A stretch of DNA of 64,000 nucleotides from Liolophura sinensis (lineage: Eukaryota; Mollusca; Polyplacophora; Chitonida; Chitonidae). Of the stretch, positions 6,266 through 15,180 are shown piece by piece (within the stretch, counting starts at the first letter, position 1; every line of letters begins with the position of its first letter). Under the pieces are notes generated by a model. It was not told the origin of the DNA, made no database searches, and saw only the letters and a program-made list of their open reading frames with translations. The position numbers and the translations under genes are program-made. The DNA is taken from the NCBI RefSeq assembly GCF_032854445.1, contig NC_088297.1, forward strand, positions 22,085,127 through 22,149,126, given 5' to 3'.

Positions 6266-6343
6266 ATGGCCACCGACATCCCAGGAGTCGTCATCCGACC
6301 TGCCGAAAAGACTGACTGCGCTGAAATAGCTCGCTTGATAAAG
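6266..6343 (+). CDS. SAT2-like: SSAT coding exon 1
   Basis: 26 codons (M1-K26), ending ...ARLIK, with donor AAG|GTACGG. It carries the first beta-strand and first helix of the GNAT fold. The open frame runs past the donor to 6451, but the residues beyond 6343 do not resemble the family. Confidence 0.93.
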
Positions 6344-9300
6344 GTACGGGTTTGCATCACGTCCAAAATACATGTACTGGTAGCACGTTGTGAATATCGC
6401 CGTTTCTCAGACGGGTTGGCCGCGTGTTGGCACGCTAGCGCAGCAGATTGAGTGAGGAGCATCTAGAGCAATGCGATCGCTGTGAGTTCCAGTAAAGCTT
6501 ACGCTTGTTTCCTCTTCACTCGTACGTGGGGAGGTTTTTCAGCAACCTGCAGACAGTCGTGGGTTCCTCTGGGTTTGACCCGGTTTCGTCTATTATGTCG
6601 GCCGCCGTAGTATAAGCGAACTATTCTTAAGTACAGCGGAAAACACTGATCAAAAAAGTGAATTCCCCAACAGCCGAGGTGATGTTTACATGTGTTTCAG
6701 GCGACCTTGATGAGGGGACTGTCGCCGGGCGAATCAACGTTTGGGGCTGTTGTACACTTCATGACCACTAATCTCACATCCAGAAGATAACGGGTTCGAA
6801 TCCGCACATGATTGCATATTACTGGAGTTTTTTGTCGGCTAAGTATATGTTGTCCGGTTTTTAAACGGATTGTGACCATCCTTTTCTGCCAATGATACGC
6901 GTTATAGCGAGAGAAATTTGAGAGCTACATCTAAATCACCCCATCCTCCGAATACAAGAGGTGTTTGGGTGTAGCCCAGGTGAGCACCAGTCTTTCTAGC
7001 AAAGACAGCTTGCACGGGTGATGGAGAATTTGAATGGATTGGGTTTGTTTTCAAGCAACCTGTGTGGTGATTATAACGACTATGTATGTTAACCTACTTC
7101 ACGTCCCAGGCCTGAGTTTTACCTATATATGTATGTGGATATGAACATACCCTGTTTTAGTGGATATAAGCACTTCGTTTTTCTCAGCCGCACGCCTCTG
7201 TGATTGTGACGCGTCCATGTGTAAATATAATTGTGTAACGTATGCTGAAAAAAGACTGGTGCTTGTATGTATAAAACACGGTGTGGCTAACAGTTCCATT
7301 ACAGTTGTCTGCCTTGGTTTTATACTATCTTTTTGAATCTGTAGTGGTATTAGTTATTGTGTTACTTGGTTGTTGTTTGACACTACATACATACATATAT
7401 ATGAATAACCTCATAACACCATCGCTGTCAGGTGGATGGGCGGAGCAAACAATATACCTGCAACAAATTCATCACAAAATTTTCACGTCAGAGCACATTT
7501 AAACTATTGCGGGATCTATTTTTCAACACCCATCACCGTTATCATGCTCTACTGATCTAGATCTAAACCATGTAGATTAGGAATGCTCCATATTTACTTC
7601 ATATAGTTCCGTGTTCGAATCCAGTTCTCGCTGTTTCATGCCAGGGCGTTCGTTACGTCACTAATGAATGTATGTACAAGAAACCGACGGTATACATTAT
7701 AACTGCAGTCTAAGGTAGGTACCGTAAAAGAATTTACCTCATTATCGCAAGGGCTAGTGGGGACAGAGCCGTCAGAACTTCCCGCACCAGGAATTCGCGA
7801 AAAATCTCATGTATGTCCTTGGCTGGTGTTTGTGTATGTCTGTATGCTTGGGGTTTATCGTCGTATTTAACAATTTTCCAGCCGTATAACGACGAGGAGT
7901 CATTGGGGGTGTGTACATATATTGTGTCTTCTTATGTCAGGGCGAGTACATGTCAGCACAGAATTATGTCTGGGGCGGAGGACACCAGACATGACAGCCA
8001 ATTCAGCCATTCAAACATTCCAGTCACATTATGCTGACTTTGAGTCAACCAGTCTCGTTTCCGTGCTTTATGCTGTCAGTGGTGAGCGCCATTGGAGACA
8101 GCGACAAGTGCAATTTCAGGTGCCATTGTTCATGTCTTTGGTATGAGCCGACGACTGGTGTTTAAGACAAAGTGCCAAAGACATTATTAAGCTGGTTGGA
8201 TTTAATCAGCCTGAACTAGAAATAAGCTCATGCTACTGTTTTATGCCTTATCCTAGGATCTCGCTGAATATGAAGGACACCGGGATCATGCTAAACTCAC
8301 TAAAGAAGGTAAGATATTAAAGCGAATAAGTATTTATTTCATTTATTTGATTGGCGTTTTACGCCGTACTCAAGAATATTTCACTTATACGACATCGGCC
8401 AGCATTATGGTTAGATAAACCCACGACCATCCGCAGGTAGCTGGAAGACCTTCCCACGTACGGCTGGAGGAATGCAGGATGAGCTGGACTTGAACTCGCA
8501 GGGCCCGCATTGGTGAGAGGCTCCTGGGTCATTACGTTGCGCTAGCGGGCTAACCAAATGAGCCACGGGCCCCCTTCTAAATAAGTAGGGTGACAAAACT
8601 TATCCATGTAGGTAAATCAGTTTGAGTTCAAAAGTAGGATAATTAGATTCATACTTGTCATTTTAAGACAGTAAGGGAAGTTAAAATGTCGGTAAACATG
8701 CCATAATCAACACCAGCTCATTTAGAAATGACACAGGGTCCAGGATCACGAAGGGGTCTTAGTCTTAAGTTAAAATTTCGATTTTTAAAGTTTGTATGTT
8801 TTGATTAAAATTTGTCTTACCGTAGCTTACCCAGAATTTACGTTGTCAATCAATAATTTGAACTCGTTACACAAGAAATAAGAATTTTAAAGTGATGTGA
8901 AATTCTGATTTAAGTCTAAAATTGCCTCGTGGGGCCACGTCTCAAGTGGACATTTACGTCAGCCTCTGGTACCGATTCCACAAAGCAGATTTTGAGTTAA
9001 CTTTAATTTAAAACCATGTTACAGTTTTCAGTTTTTGCCAGAAGTAGTGGTAATTTTGATGCACTTCTCATACGATGACACTTTAATGTATTCGAATTTT
9101 TAATTTCTAGGGCCTAAGACAAGTTCGAAAATCATATTTTAAATTTGACATAAATCAGCCCCTGGGATCGATTCCACAAAGCCATTTCTGGCTACGATTT
9201 TGTAGCTTGTTTTGGGGTATTAGAAATTCCAATTTTGATTATCTCATGAATTTTATCTTAAGACAAACCTGTAAAAAAGTCAACTTCCAGTACAAAATAT

Positions 9301-12300
9301 GAAGCATTCTGGCACGGTCTTAAATTTTGACTTAAGTCAGAAGTGGCTTTGTGGAATTGGTGGTACGATCTTAAATTTTGATTAAAGTCAAAAGTGGCTT
9401 TGTGTGATCAGTGGAACGATCTTAAATTTTGACTTGTCAGAAATGGCTTTGTGGAATCGGTGGTACGATCTTAAATTTTAACTTAAGTCATAATTGGCTT
9501 TGTGTGATCAGTGGAACGATCTTAAATCTTGACTTGTCAGAAATGGCTTTGTGGAATCGGTGGTACGATCTTAAATTTTGACTTAAGTCAGAAGTGGCTT
9601 TGTGTGATCAGTGGGACGATCTTAAATTTTGACTTGTCAGAAATGGCTTTGTGGAATCGGTGGTACGATCTTAAATTTTGACTGAAGTCAAAAGTGGCTT
9701 TGTGTGATCAGTGGAACGATCTTAAATTTTGACTCAGAAATGGCTTTGTGGAATCGATATCACAATTATGTGTAACCTGAGCGCCACCTATATATGCGTT
9801 TCTGTTTTGGGGGTGGGGAGTGGGTGGAGGGGCGAGTATAGTTTAGGTAGCATATTTTTTAATTATTCCTTAATTGGGTTTGTTGGGGCTTTCAGGGTTA
9901 CAGGTTCGAATCCAGCCGTGGGTTGATCCAGCCGTAAGTCACATTAGGTTTCCTCTATTAATCTAACTGGCGTGGTACAAGGGAAAAATCTTGAGTGCGG
10001 GTTTAACCACAGTAAACCAAGCAAACAAACAAATAAATCAATCAGTAAACAAATAAAGTAATTAATAAATGTTTCAGAGTTGGAGGAGGATGGGTTTGGA
10101 GAGGATCGCTGGTTTTACGGTTTTGTGGCAGAAGATCCTAATGCTGTTCGTTCAGAAACAGGTTAGTGATACCATGAAAAATTGATTTGAACTCATATTC
10201 AGCATCACTTTTGCAATCGTTTTAACATTATTTAGTAAAATTAACCATAGTTCCTTTGTAAAGCGTTATGGCAGCTGAGCACCACGTGGTAAGGACTTCC
10301 CTGTCACTAACTTTCTCGGAGAGACTTGGTGACAAGCGTTTGACCATTCTTATTTGGGGTTTTCTCGTTTTGGCGTTTTCTCGTTTTGGCGTGTTCTCGT
10401 TGATGGGTGAGATTAAATAAGTTCATCGAAGGGCGTGTGCTATGGACCAGTGTGGCACACACTTTCCGCTTGCTCGACAGGTGAACCTGTGTGCATGTGG
10501 AAAAGTTAGGTTTCCTCCATCAGTGACATTTAGGTAGAATATTTAACAAGAAAACCAACAAAAATCAGTTCTAGCTGCAGTTTTCTTCTCATTGTCGCAC
10601 ATGCATCGTTCTTTACGTACATTCAATAATACATACATGTTGATGTTATTTATTTGTTTGATTGGACTTTTAATCCGTACCCAGGGATATTTCCCATGTA
10701 CGAGGGCGAGCCAACGTTATGGAGGGAGGAAACCGGAAGAGTCAAGAGGAAACTCAAATCCATCCGCAGGTTGCTGATAGACCTTCCCACATATGGCCGT
10801 GGGGAAGCCAGCATGAACTGGACATGAACTCATAGCGATCTCATCACCGAGAGGCTTTTATGGTGCTGCGGTAGTAGGCTAACCTCTAGGCCACAAAAGC
10901 CCTCATCGATGTTGACTGGCATATCGCCACGTGGGCAATATTTCAACCATATCGTGGCGACATCCATGTTGAATATATACACACGTATTACACATATCAA
11001 AATGACAAACTAAAGATGTTTACGTCTGAGTATCAATAAGGGAGAGGGTTTTGTAGAGGTGGGAAATGGATGGGAGGGATAAGAGGAACTTTATGCCAGA
11101 TAAGCCTCTCTGACCGAGACAAATGGCGTTCACTGAGAAAAAAAAAAAAAACACAGCTTGTGCCTGGCGCGTGAGATCGCCTGTTCGAACCCGGCTTTTG
11201 CAGGTTCAGTTGATGCCTTCTGTCCGGGTATTTATCAGGTACCTGGCGAGGGTCGGTCGATTTTCTCGGGCTCTGGCCGAAGTCCTGGAAGAGAAACATT
11301 CTGGAAATCCTCTGGAAAACACAATGAAGGGGTATGTCGGTATATAGTGGAGTAATTGTCAGGACATCAGTGTACATATAATCAGTGCTGGCCACAATTG
11401 ACATTCATTTCACATTTCCACGGTAACTTTTGGGTGCACTACCTGTACCTGAATCTGTGAGACCCGATACTCCTCGTCACTTGATGCAATTTGCAGTCAA
11501 ATTCCTGATAGCGATTGTGCGATCCAATTTTTCCCAAAAGTGACAAACAGGTGATCGAGGTGAAACAACCATGTCGGCGGGACTTTTCTCTGCTCTCTGT
11601 GAATCCGCCTCCATATCCTGAAAGAAAAAACCAAGACAAACAAAAAATCAAACAAACAAACAAAATAAAACAGAAAACTAGGCTAAGAATAAAATTTGGA
11701 AGCCTCTGCTACAAAACAATACCACTCAACTGGCAGACAAAATATTAAAACAGGCCGCCCATATGAGCAAAAGAAAATATATCTGAAAAAGCATGGGATT
11801 ACATTCGTCTTCACTGCCTGGAAGCACTAATTGTGGTGTGTGGCTCGCTAATCTCCTGACACAGTCTTTACACTTGTACTTTCAGACCCCCCTCGCTTGA
11901 TCGGCTGTGCCGTGTATTTCATGATGTACTACTCAAACGAGGGTAGAGCAGTTTACATGGAAGATTTGTTTGTATCCTCGGAGTTCCGAAAGAAGGGAAT
12001 CGGCAAAACACTGATGAAGAAAGTTGCTCAGGTATAATGGAAAGTTGCTTGAGTATGAAGTTGCTGCGATAAAATTAGGTATACCGTGGTAAGTTGTCGG
12101 GAATCTAATCGGGTATACCGTGGTAAGGTGTTGAGGTCTAATTGGGTATACCTTGGTAAGTTATTGAGGTCTGTTCGGGTACACGGTGGTAAGTTGTTGA
12201 GGTCTAATCGGATACACGGTGGTAAGTTGCTGAGGTATAATCGGGTATACCGTGGTAAGTTGTTGAGGTCTAATCGAGTATACCTTGGTAAGTTTTTGAG

Positions 12301-14944
12301 GTCTTATCGGGTAGGGGCCTCCGTAGCTCAGTCGGTTAGCGCGCTAGCGCAGCGTAATGACCCAGGAGCCTCTCACCAATGCGGTAGCTGTGAGTTCAAG
12401 TCCAGCTCATGCTGGCTTCCTCTCCGGCCTTAAGTGGGAAGGTCTGCCAGCAACCTGCGGATGGTCGTGGGTTTCCCCCGGACTGTGCTCGGTTCCCACC
12501 CACAATAATGCTGGCCGCCGTCGTATAAGTGAAATATTCTTGAGTACGGCGTAAAACACCAATCAAATAAATCTAATCGGGTACACGGTGGTAAATTGTT
12601 GAGCTATAATCGGGTATACCGTGGCAAGTTTTTGATGTCTACTCCTGCATACGGTGGTAAATTGTTGAGGTCTAATCGGGTATACCGTGGTAAATTGTTG
12701 AGGTTTAATGGGTTATACTGTGGCAAGTTGCTTAGGTTTAATGGGGTATACTGTGGCAAGTTTTTGAGGTCAAATCGGGTATATTGTGGTAAATTGTTGA
12801 GGTCTAATCGGGTATACCGTGGTAAGTTGTTGAGGTCTAATCGAGTATACCGTGGTAAGTTGTTGAGGTCTAATCGGGGATACGGTGGTAAGCTGTTGAA
12901 GTCTAATCGGGTATAATGTGGTAAGTTGTTGAGGTCAAATCGGGTATATTGTTGTAAGTTGTTGACGTCTAATCGGGTATATCGTGGTAAGTTGTTGAGG
13001 TCTAATCGAGTATACCGTGGTAAGTTGTTGAGGTCTAATCGGGTATATTGTGGTAAGTTGTTGAGGTCCCATTGGGACTGTGGGAAGTTGTTGAGGTCTA
13101 ATCGGGTATGTCGTAGTAAGTTGTTAAAGTCTAATCAGGTATACCGTGGTAAGTTGTTGAGGTTTTATCACGTATACCATGGTAAGTTGCTGAGGTCTAA
13201 TCGGGGATACCGTGGTAAGTCGATGAGGTCTAATCGGGTATACCGTGGTACATCTAAATTGCTATGGTCTTACTGGGCATATCGTGGTAAGTTGTTGAGG
13301 TCTAATCGGATATATTATGGTAGGTTGTTGAGGTCTAATCAGATATCGTGGTAAGTTCTTGAGGTCAAATCGGGTGTACCGTGTAGCTGCTTAGGTATAA
13401 ACTATATAGCGCATAAATAATAAACCGCTGTGCAAACTCTATGACAATACATTAATAATACATCGACAATACGCTGTTGGTGCTGTTGTTACAATACTGA
13501 CGAAAACAGATATATTTGTAGGATTTTCTTTGTACTTTTACATGACGTTCTTTTAAATCTCTTTCAGTTCTATTCTGAAAAAGTGTAGTCTCAAGTGCGC
13601 GTGTTTTTTTTAGTTTATTGGAGTGTCAACGTAAATAAATGACCAATCCGATTGCGTCTTACAAACTTAAATTAAGCGAAATTAAATCATTCAGGTATAA
13701 ATGAGTTGCGCAGGTATAAACAAGAGAAATAATGCATCTATACCGTGGAGTTACTTAGGTAAAATTAGTAGTTTACTCAGGTATAGTTCGAGGCTGTAAA
13801 ATGGGAAGTGGCTTTGGTGTATAACGGGATGTTTATTTGGAACACAACATTGTAAGTTGCCCAGAAGGTGAGGAGACTTTATCTGGTATATTACATGTTG
13901 AAGTTCTGCAGATATATTGGATATTTGCGCAGGTATTATGGAAAGTTACATAGTTGTTTTGTGGGCGAAAATGTTTCACATCTTAATATGGCCCATGGAT
14001 AGCTACTGCTAACCTAAACAATTGCCCATGGGTAAAGACTGCTAATCTAGACAATTGCCAAAGAATAACTACTGCTAATCTAGACATTTGCCCATGGATA
14101 ACTACTGGCAATCTAGACAATTGTCCATGGATAACTACTGCTAATCTAGACAGTTGCCCAAGAATAACTACTGCTAATCTAGACAATTGCCCATGGATAA
14201 CTACTGCTGATTTAGACAATTGCCCATGGATAACTAGTGGTATTGTAGACAATTGCCTATGGATAACTACTGGTAATCTAGACAATTGCCCATGGATAAC
14301 TACTGCTAATCTATTATACACGACGTCCATATGCTGACAATTTAACATCGTTGTAAAATGGCATATAAATAAATTAGAATAGACACGCAACTGACTTGTT
14401 CCGTTCAAATGCGTAATCCAAAAGGAGAAACAAGTTTTCAATGGTCTCAGCCTATTCTATTTTCTCGATGAAAAGGATAAATAAACTGAGGCTTGACTCA
14501 AAAATTAATCTGTTAATTTTAACAGGGAGTCGAGTGATGTCTGAGTGATGCTAGAATGTATTCTGTTATTATAAGAAAATACCAGGGCATATTCAACATA
14601 ATATCCCGTATAATGCAAATTTTATGTTAAATTAATAGAATATGTATGCTATATTTAACCGAATAATGTGCTGCAGTATAACAGAATACATTCCAGCATC
14701 AATGCAACTAAAGACTCTCCGTTAAATTGAACATTTTATTGTGTTCAGAGTTTCTCGAATGTGTAACTTGTTTCAGGTGGGCGTGGACAATAACTGTGTC
14801 GCCATGTTCTTTAACTGTCTGAGGCACAACACGCCGTCACTGGCCTTCTATAAGCGTCAGGGTGCAGAAGATCTGGCCGAGACGGAAGCCTGGAGAAACT
14901 TAGTATTAAATCGAAATGACTTGGAGAAATTGGCTAGTTCTTGA
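6266..14944 (+). CDS. SAT2-like: Diamine (spermidine/spermine or thialysine) N-acetyltransferase, five exons
   Basis: Join 6266-6343, 8257-8308, 10078-10161, 11886-12031, 14777-14944: 528 nt, 175 residues plus TGA (human SAT1/SAT2 are 170-171). All four introns are GT-AG; phases are 0, 1, 1, 0. Known members move an acetyl group from acetyl-CoA to polyamines or thialysine in the cytosol. Seen here: N-terminal VVIRPAEKTDCAEIARLIK; DGFGEDRWFYGFVAE (residues 48-62); PRLIGCAVYF (74-83); E97-D98 before the central strand; FRKKGIG (105-111), the acetyl-CoA loop; and FYKRQGAEDL (144-153), whose Y145 aligns with SAT1 Tyr140, the general acid. KKVAQV and the DLAETEAW region look closer to SAT2/thialysine enzymes, the tail is intermediate; substrate is undecided. 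The ATG follows an in-frame TGA at 6185 and has G at -3 and +4. Confidence 0.93.
6403..6655 (+). mobile_element. SINE, decayed, in intron 1
   Basis: 'cacgctagcgcagcag', 'gcgatcgctgtgagttc', 'cagcaacctgcagacagtcg' and 'gccgccgtagtataagcg' occur in SINE order. It starts only about 60 bases after exon 1. Confidence 0.65.
6730..6840 (+). mobile_element. tRNA-like SINE fragment in intron 1
   Basis: A good B box 'gggttcgaatccgc' near 6790 follows a degenerate head. No pairing acceptor stem was found, so it is not called a tRNA gene. A similar lone B box (gtgttcgaatccagt) lies near 7612. Confidence 0.35.
7815..8160 (+). repeat. Dispersed repeat D, copy 1 (intron 1)
   Basis: 'ggggtttatcgtcgtattta', 'acgacgaggagtcattgggg', 'gtgtgtacatat' and 'caccagacatgacagcca' match the order seen at 35420-35640. 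It looks like a SINE or other short interspersed element. Open frames inside it are not conserved between the copies. Confidence 0.5.
8257..8308 (+). CDS. SAT2-like: SSAT coding exon 2
   Basis: 52 nt, acceptor ...tcctag|GAT, donor GAAG|GTAAGA. It encodes DLAEYEGHRDHAKLTKE and the first base of the next codon. This corresponds to the SAT1/SAT2 segment after RLIK (ELAKYE / ELAEFE), in the helix that contributes to polyamine binding. Confidence 0.93.
8325..8573 (-). mobile_element. SINE, near full length, in intron 2
   Basis: It reads as the reverse complement: 'ttacgccgtactcaagaata', 'catccgcaggtagctggaag', 'tggacttgaactcgcagggc' (B box complement) and 'gctaaccaaatgagccacgg' (A box complement). 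It starts about 20 bases after the exon 2 donor. Confidence 0.85.
8730..9310. repeat. Fold-back-like element related to the adjacent array
   Basis: 'ggtccaggatcacgaagggg', 'cggtaccgattccacaaagc'-type strings and 'gatcgattccacaaagccat' (near 9170) are complementary to the core of the 9311-9755 array (tggctttgtggaatcggtgg). Blocks of 'cttaagttaaaattt' occur in both orientations. It appears to be a mobile element from which the array was amplified. Confidence 0.4.
9311..9755 (+). repeat. Tandem array, about 52-bp unit in alternating A/B types (intron 2)
   Basis: Each unit is 'cgatcttaaattttgactt' plus 'cagaaatggctttgtg' plus a variable end. Type A ends 'tgatcagtggaacgat' and type B ends 'gaatcggtggtacgat'. 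A and B alternate, giving a higher-order unit of about 103 bp repeated about four times. Confidence 0.75.
9808..9836 (+). other. G-rich run, possible G-quadruplex
   Basis: Successive G tracts 'gggggtggggagtgggtgg' followed by 'agggg' on the sense strand of intron 2. The spacing fits the usual four-tract pattern. Confidence 0.4.
9860..10068 (+). mobile_element. tRNA-derived SINE, family B, at the end of intron 2
   Basis: A B box 'caggttcgaatccagccgtg' is followed by a body with 'ggtttcctctattaatctaa' and an A-rich (aaac/aaat)n tail. It stops a few bases before the exon 3 acceptor, so the pyrimidine tract of that acceptor is very short (gtttcag). Confidence 0.55.
10078..10161 (+). CDS. SAT2-like: SSAT coding exon 3
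   Basis: 84 nt, acceptor gtttcag|AG, donor ACAG|GTTAGT. It encodes ELEEDGFGEDRWFYGFVAED then PNAVRSET. It matches the family's DGFG-x(3)-FY-x(3)-VAE segment exactly in spacing. Confidence 0.93.
10640..10905 (-). mobile_element. SINE, near full length but diverged, in intron 3
   Basis: (tatt)n, 'gattggacttttaatccgta', 'atccgcaggttgctgataga' and 'ggctaacctctaggccac' fit the reverse complement of the SINE from tail to head. Confidence 0.75.
11095..11300 (+). mobile_element. tRNA-derived SINE, family C, in intron 3
   Basis: 'gcctgttcgaacccggc' (B box), 'aggtacctggcgagggtcgg' and 'attttctcgggctctggc' align with the second family C copy at 14975-15180. An A13 run lies just upstream. The remaining parts of intron 3 (10162-10640, 11300-11885) show nothing else I can name. 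Confidence 0.5.
11886..12031 (+). CDS. SAT2-like: SSAT coding exon 4
   Basis: 146 nt, acceptor ctttcag|AC. The donor CTCAG|GTATAA departs from the GTAAGT consensus at +4 and +5/+6. It encodes D72-Q120: PRLIGCAVYF, the E-D-L motif (97-99), then FRKKGIGKTLMKKVAQ with the acetyl-CoA pyrophosphate loop. It is about 53% identical in protein to the downstream paralogous exon at 16069-16214. Confidence 0.93.
12020..13400 (+). repeat. 33-bp minisatellite growing out of the exon 4 / intron 4 boundary
   Basis: The unit is 'aagttgttgaggtctaatcg' followed by 'ggtataccgtggt' (33 bp), about 33 copies, split by a SINE at 12314-12571. The first units overlap the end of exon 4: the boundary 'aaagttgctcaggtataatg' (12020-12039) closely matches a unit such as 12225 onward (aagttgctgaggtataatcg). 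About 19 units contain GTAAGT within TGGTAAGTTG, by hand count. Long open frames (11-residue repeats such as SNRVYRGKLLR) are explained by the unit being a multiple of three, and are not called genes. Confidence 0.85.
12314..12571 (+). mobile_element. SINE, full length, inserted in the 33-bp array
   Basis: The head 'gtagctcagtcggttagcgc' fits the A-box consensus. A B box 'gagttcaagtcc' follows, then the core and the tail 'ccaatcaaataaat'. Array sequence flanks it (tcttatcgggta before, tctaatcgggta after), which may be a target-site duplication, but two array units would look the same. Confidence 0.92.
13401..13960 (+). repeat. Degenerate outlying copies of the exon 4 boundary sequence
   Basis: Scattered 'cttaggtataaac', 'ttgcgcaggtataaac', 'tactcaggtatag' and, at about 13927-13950, 'gcgcaggtattatggaaag' resemble the exon 4 end plus intron start (gctcaggtataatggaaag). 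No regular period remains. Confidence 0.5.
13985..14312 (-). repeat. Second 33-bp minisatellite in intron 4
   Basis: The unit is 'acaattgcccatggataact' plus 'actgctaatctag' (33 bp), about ten copies. It contains the palindromes CAATTG and CCATGG. The opposite strand is open for about 150 codons in 11-residue repeats (VVIHGQLSRLA), which is expected for a 33-bp unit and is not called a gene. Its sequence is unrelated to the first array although the period is the same. Confidence 0.85.
14777..14944 (+). CDS. SAT2-like: SSAT coding exon 5 (terminal)
   Basis: Acceptor ttgtttcag|GTG, stop TGA at 14942-14944. It encodes V121-S175 with SLAFYKRQGAEDL; Y145 is the presumed catalytic acid. Then EAW (157-159) and a C-terminal helix ending LEKLASS. 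Confidence 0.93.
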   Translation: MGVDNNCVAMFFNCLRHNTPSLAFYKRQGAEDLAETEAWRNLVLNRNDLEKLASS

Positions 14945-14974
14945 CCTAACCGTCAAAACATTCAGGGGAGTGAA

Positions 14975-15180
14975 GCACCTGTAATGACCATGGCCAGTGA
15001 GGTCGCGGGTTCGAAGCCAGCGCTCACTTCTGCTACGGCTGTAAATCAGGAGCTTTGTTAGGTACCTCGAGAAATGCGGTGGTTTTTCTCACTCCGGGCT
15101 CTTTGCTTTCGTCCACCCTATAAACCTGACCGCCGTCACTCAAGTGAAATACCATTGAAATACATAAATAAATAAACAAA
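14975..15180 (+). mobile_element. tRNA-derived SINE, family C, in the SSAT 3' flank; carries AATAAA
   Basis: B box 'gcgggttcgaagccagcg', then 'taggtacctcgagaaatgcg' and a tail 'aaatacataaataaataaac'. Two overlapping AATAAA hexamers (15167-15176) are the first good poly(A) signals after the stop codon, so the SINE tail may end the SSAT mRNA. Confidence 0.55.

Follow-up and report, generated by a model that had tools for sequence, protein, structure and literature searches.

The minisatellite of human IFI6 (6-16) reportedly has 12-bp units that start at the exon 2 donor, an arrangement that Turri is said to have described in 1995. Downstream repeat units of IFI6 act as splice donors, according to an excerpt of a paper that cites Turri 1995 (PMC4526556). 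Amphioxus has so-called mirages, in which intron/exon boundaries are duplicated in the manner of a minisatellite; they have been described in Adh3 (units of 10-72 bp) and in the globin genes BflGb6 and BflGb9, and, as excerpts of that report have it, many of the units carry AG/GT, the arrays are unstable in length, and RT-PCR suggests undisturbed splicing (PMC3087553). TnC and PGBD5 appear as further amphioxus mirages in excerpts of a second paper (PMC3902484). A sequence-only reading of the mollusc locus analyzed here had held that there was no described case of its form; because the mirages and IFI6, as excerpted, are close precedents, that claim falls. No mollusc precedent for a boundary-derived minisatellite was found in a limited literature search, which is weak evidence of absence, and DDX3Y/MSY2 (PMC3039753) was rejected as a precedent because the excerpted text concerns a promoter case with no splice-boundary array.

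The window, i.e., the whole 64,000-nucleotide stretch that was analyzed (G000:C3:22085127-22149126), contains an SSAT-like gene with five exons at 6266-6343, 8257-8308, 10078-10161, 11886-12031, and 14777-14944, modeled on the basis of homology and splice signals. The joined product of the five exons matched the GNAT family (Pfam PF00583, 2.9e-16) and diamine acetyltransferase 1 (3bj7, 1.6e-36). Exon 4, which was located by tblastn with human SAT1 along with these two matches, ends with the codons K-K-V-A-Q, and exon 5 follows an acceptor (tttcag) that ends at 14776; both exons, and all parts of the array described below, lie on the + strand. The exon 4/intron 4 junction is ...AAGTTGCTCAG|GTATAATGG with the true donor GT at 12032, which confirms the junction given by the sequence-only reading. 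Immediately 3' of this donor on the + strand is an in-frame stop, GTA TAA (12032-12037), that would be included by any downstream donor and that is identical in all three tandem copies of the region (see below). Another array, with 51-bp and 100-bp periods, occupies 9310-9755 in the intron preceding exon 3 of the same gene.

Wrap-around alignment against a circular 33-bp consensus revealed a minisatellite that runs in phase from 12021, within exon 4, to ∼13,411, in agreement with the earlier claim that the array overlaps the boundary. Stricter scoring gave an array at 12058-13400 plus two short leading pieces starting at 12021, and TRF alone gave 12078-12313 plus 12572-13383. The presumed founder, AAAGTTGCTCAG|GTATAATGG (12020-12040), spans the true donor and is identical in the three tandem copies. 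The array opens with two short units of 20 and 17 bp: unit 0 occupies 12021-12040, and unit 1 (12041-12057; AAAGTTGCTTGAGTATG) is degenerate, with a matching leading piece in each of the other two copies (L009 and L010). They are followed by a 5' block of ∼8 units (12058-12313, from TRF at 12078-12313 and wrap-around alignment) and a 3' block of ∼25 units (12572-13411, from TRF at 12572-13383 and alignment). The blocks are divided by an insert of ∼258 bp (12314-12571, borders approximate), which we read as SINE-like; it is common to the window and L009, only its 3' part is present in L010, and its 3' junction is common to all three copies. Strings of this SINE gave 0 hits in the literature. 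Degenerate ∼21-bp relatives of the boundary were found at 8 places within 13683-13962 (at most 8/21 mismatches), at what is presumably the 3' edge of the old array. The best of these, a 21-mer at 13921 with 4/21 mismatches, contains gcgcaggtattatgg at 13927, the near-boundary string that had already been pointed out at about 13927-13950.

Other features of intron 4 were also surveyed. A second 33-bp array lies at 13991-14313, with 9.8 copies in the window, 7.8 in L009, and 35.8 in L010; a relationship to the first array was rejected, as the best rotation scored 15/33, a value reached by 1445/3000 shuffles. Searches for structured RNA yielded 0 Rfam matches at gathering score in 11600-15000, and ARAGORN reported 0 tRNA genes in the window. 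The array strand is poor in C (11.6%), and a rough search pattern, a run of pyrimidines plus YAG, occurred in intron 4 only at 13558 and 13604, both outside the array. Since the pattern fails to pick up the acceptor of exon 5 at 14776, its value as a test for pseudo-exons is low. The acceptor-like tctctttcag at 13558-13570, which follows the array but precedes its 3' edge, is a possible pseudo-exon start.

Searching the genome (609 Mb, 632 contigs) uncovered two further copies of the region upstream, at C3:22064007 and C3:22079643, which together with the window make three tandem copies in the one assembly. The boundary 20-mer is present once in each copy and is identical among them, and the first units are nearly the same in all three. 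Exon 4 of the window is identical to that of L009, and exon 4 of L010 differs at 8/146 bases. Of the aligned rows, 44 in the window, 42 in L009, and 69 in L010, the numbers that qualified as good units (at least 31 aligned characters, at least 24 of them matching) were 32, 30, and 58, respectively; the others were poor units, rows from the SINE, or pieces at the edges. Array length thus differs between the tandem gene copies. The array of L010, the second gene copy, includes a ∼602-bp internal duplication (L010:1618-2821). When a 264-bp piece of the array was searched against the genome, with scoring of the best candidates and omission of very common words, 22/22 matches fell in the three tandem copies of intron 4 on C3, and an origin from a dispersed repeat was rejected as unsupported by this search.

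A protein search of the genome provided 17 exon matches, of which five are exon-4 homologues outside the three copies: L042 (C12), L043 (C3), and the type-II loci L044, L045, and L048, with L044 and L045 located inside the window. Within ∼1.5 kb on each side of these five exons no array was detected (best unit match, 14-15/33 mismatches), and the best boundary-like 21-mer had 7-9/21 mismatches. The KKVAQ exon end corresponds to KRVAQ in two of the paralogues and to KGVAK and KTVAK in two others; the frame of L048 is disturbed. At 577-714 lies a type-II copy of SSAT exon 4 that has a TAG in frame, and both this copy and L048, the copy with the disturbed frame, look like decayed tandem duplicates.

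Compared with the amphioxus mirages as excerpts of those papers portray them, the array is alike in several respects. It appears to be a tandem duplication of a boundary, its 33-bp unit lies within the 10-72 bp range of Adh3, and its interior is homogenized with the edges left out. AG/GT is also kept in some units, with GAGGTATAA occurring 1, 1, and 3 times and GAGGTCTAA 14, 15, and 32 times in the window, L009, and L010, respectively. Array length, which is unstable in amphioxus, varies here between the tandem gene copies and may be unstable as well. The array is unlike the excerpted mirages in that the host is a mollusc and not a cephalochordate, the gene is SSAT, the locus is known from genome sequence alone, and most of the inherited donors seem to have decayed, with strong donors newly formed at unit joints. 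We treat the cephalochordate host as the host range of mirages rather than as a defining feature. The assignment of the array as a boundary-derived minisatellite of the described mirage kind, now in another host group, is well supported. Regarding the host itself, eight haemocyanin beta-sandwich domains stand in a row on C8 inside a stretch of 11.5 kb, and 0/14 control genomes gave a hit to the family; a row of eight haemocyanin domains is a molluscan feature.

The explanation that we consider quite probable is that a mirage-type minisatellite, derived from the boundary and seeded locally before the triplication, is tolerated in the intron and that splicing still takes place at 12032. That the array originated through tandem duplication of the boundary, as the sequence-only reading had suggested, is well supported by the phase, the 3' edge, the lack of matches elsewhere in the genome search, the three tandem copies with the array, and the five paralogous exon-4 loci that lack it. 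The order of events would have been as follows. A ∼21-bp segment across the exon 4/intron 4 boundary was presumably duplicated in tandem, extending into the intron; a portion of another boundary copy may then have been fused on to create the 33-bp unit, and this unit would have spread via unequal exchange or slippage, with old degenerate copies kept at both edges. The fusion step is suggested by the resemblance of the intron start, GGTATAATGGA, to the 13 bases that close the unit, GGTATACCGTGGT; when GGTATA--ATGGA was aligned against GGTATACCGTGGT, the similarity was reached by 5/5000 shuffles. The 33-bp unit therefore looks like a boundary copy plus part of a second copy. Because the three copies share both boundary and array, the genome search found the array nowhere else, and the five paralogues are devoid of it, the boundary probably seeded the array after the split from the other paralogues and before the triplication, and the length has probably changed since.

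The donors within the array would then have followed two courses. Among 26 ungapped units, the A at +3 of the inherited donor copy is lost in 23 (20 C, 3 T), such that CAG|GTATAA would have decayed in most units, typically to GAG|GTCTAA; the U1 pairing of GAGGTCTAA is -4.2 kcal/mol. The GTAAGT sequences are situated at the unit-to-unit joint and are not copies of the true donor. They may have arisen through the change of GGAAAGTTG to GGTAAGTTG, and the presumed ancestral joint, TGGAAAGTTG, is still found at 12037-12046, one A to T change away from the decoy. The 17 decoy donors (G|GTAAGT) span 12088-13356 on the + strand, with the first GT at 12089 and the last at 13351. The earlier figure of about 19 units with TGGTAAGTTG was too high: exact copies number 13 and GGTAAGT sites 17, and 19 is the number of GTAAGT sequences in the array (20 across the whole intron 4). 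Calculated U1 duplex energies, which reflect pairing only and are not a trained splice model, were -7.2 kcal/mol for the true donor (CAGGTATAA), -8.6 kcal/mol for the decoy (GTGGTAAGT), and -11.6 kcal/mol for the optimum (CAGGTAAGT). By this measure 22 of the 265 GT sites of intron 4, a total that includes the true donor, out-pair the true donor. Strong decoys, as had been proposed, thus exist and pair better with U1, but their advantage over the true donor is modest and they lie at unit joints. A role for them in regulating splicing or in titrating U1, which the sequence-only reading put forward, is hypothetical.

The main rival explanation, which we regard as unlikely, is that the array serves as a length-variable poison: partial use of the decoys would bring in a stop two codons after the last Q of exon 4, leading to nonsense-mediated decay and lower SSAT output, perhaps to different extents in the three copies. 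The introns of the window, L009, and L010 carry 17, 17, and 30 GGTAAGT sites, and any downstream donor would yield ...KKVAQV followed by the stop (+4 to +6), which in every copy precedes the nearest GGTAAGT junction by 51 nt or more. With the stop directly behind the true donor, use of a decoy would be unproductive. The better pairing of the decoys with U1 also agrees with such a role, as does the slightly greater conservation of the decoy columns in the 26 ungapped 33-bp units (0.940 versus 0.889 for the rest); however, the decoy window ranks only fourth among the 33 circular windows. Retention of the decoys between copies was compared with that of other unit segments. In the best-aligned pair, the window and L009, GGTAAGT was retained in 14/17 cases, compared with 15/18 for TCTAATC, 17/19 ungapped (of 20) for TTGAGGT, and 9/13 for GTATACC, which argues against preferential maintenance. 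In comparisons with L010, whose array is far longer and aligns more poorly, the decoys were kept a little better than the other segments, with 9/15 ungapped (of 17) versus 9/18, 10/20, and 3/13 for the window and L010, and 10/15 ungapped (of 17) versus 10/17, 10/18, and 6/12 for L009 and L010. Selection on the decoys thus received no support from the conservation rank or from the window-L009 retention, and a slight excess was present in the poorer L010 alignments. From these alignments, evidence that the decoys would be maintained is weak or absent, which favors the neutral mirage.

The human SAT1 poison exon is a separate cassette exon, and Hyvonen is said to have described unproductive SSAT splicing in 2006. 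One source, as excerpted, lists human SAT1 as having a poison exon (PMC8501971), and IFI6, with its downstream repeat units acting as donors in the excerpt cited above (PMC4526556), likewise lends some plausibility to decoy use. The locus is like human SAT1, as excerpted, in belonging to the same enzyme family and in the unproductive splicing that would be the outcome, but here there is a repeat array and no cassette exon, and we claim no homology between the two. Similarly, it is like IFI6 in having units with good donor-like sites (the 17 GGTAAGT sites, with GTGGTAAGT at -8.6 kcal/mol), and it is unlike IFI6, in which downstream units are reported in the excerpt to be used in mRNA, in that its donor sites are predicted and their use would truncate the protein. 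Against the poison explanation, the amphioxus mirages possess splice signals and apparently left splicing undisturbed according to the excerpted reports (PMC3087553, PMC3902484). A stronger form, in which a weak true donor would compete with a tunable bank of 17 to 30 better-pairing poison donors, the outcome setting SSAT output and differences in array length making the copies differ in yield, we consider quite unlikely. A regulatory reading as such accordingly ranges from unlikely to quite unlikely, and the mirage-type array that leaves splicing at 12032 is preferred.

It is very unlikely that an unrelated or dispersed minisatellite, or a mobile-element repeat, landed beside the exon and resembles the boundary through a coincidence of splice consensus. 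Tandem arrays are common in the window (33 TRF rows, among them the unrelated 33-bp array at 13991-14313), and exon 4 alone showed no significant match to the array consensus in free local alignment, being equalled by 73/400 shuffled consensuses and 74/400 window segments. In phase, compared with 31 unit starts (those at 13250 and 13384 are irregular and were omitted), the exon 11-mer at 12021 had a mean of 8.48/11, the best of 135 exon-4 11-mers (runner-up, 5.90), and its score was equalled by 4/61,870 other 11-mers of the window. For the exon plus 14 intron bases, the match to the consensus was equalled by 0/400 shuffles but by 4/400 random window segments. Among 240 other AG|GT-centered 19-mers (+ strand, outside 12000-14000), the nearest had 5 mismatches to the array consensus versus 4 for the boundary, a small difference that suits coincidence; in contrast, the nearest of them had 7 mismatches to the unit at 12224, which differs from the boundary at 2/19 bases and had rightly been described as nearly the same string. 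The three other donors of the gene and two type-II donors had 9 to 15 mismatches of 19. On both strands of the window, the 21-mer at 12020-12040 had, besides itself, 13 matches at 5 or fewer mismatches (13 forward, 0 reverse), all in intron 4. The boundary-like copies at the 3' edge also speak against coincidence, their matches (as minimum or counts) being reached in 0/2000 region shuffles, 0/2000 probe shuffles, and 0/612 other windows, as do the phase that runs on into the exon and the confinement of all 22 array matches to the three copies, with none at other loci. These comparisons show a relationship of boundary, array, and 3' edge that chance does not account for, and the AGGT consensus by itself does not account for the exon part of the match. 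The reverse direction, in which a repeat from the intron expanded into the exon and took over its end, is extremely unlikely: similarity of sequence alone gives no direction, but the exon end encodes V-A, as it does in four of the five paralogues that have no array, so the direction exon to intron is indicated.

With this locus, the boundary-derived minisatellite described from amphioxus is placed in a mollusc, in a gene whose three tandem copies differ in array length. The array suggests a route by which a minisatellite may create strong donor-like sites at the joints between its units. If the poison-bank reading were true, differences in array length would cause the tandem gene copies to differ in SSAT yield. 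The three copies offer a natural experiment on whether a weak donor is disturbed when numerous better-looking donors lie downstream of it.
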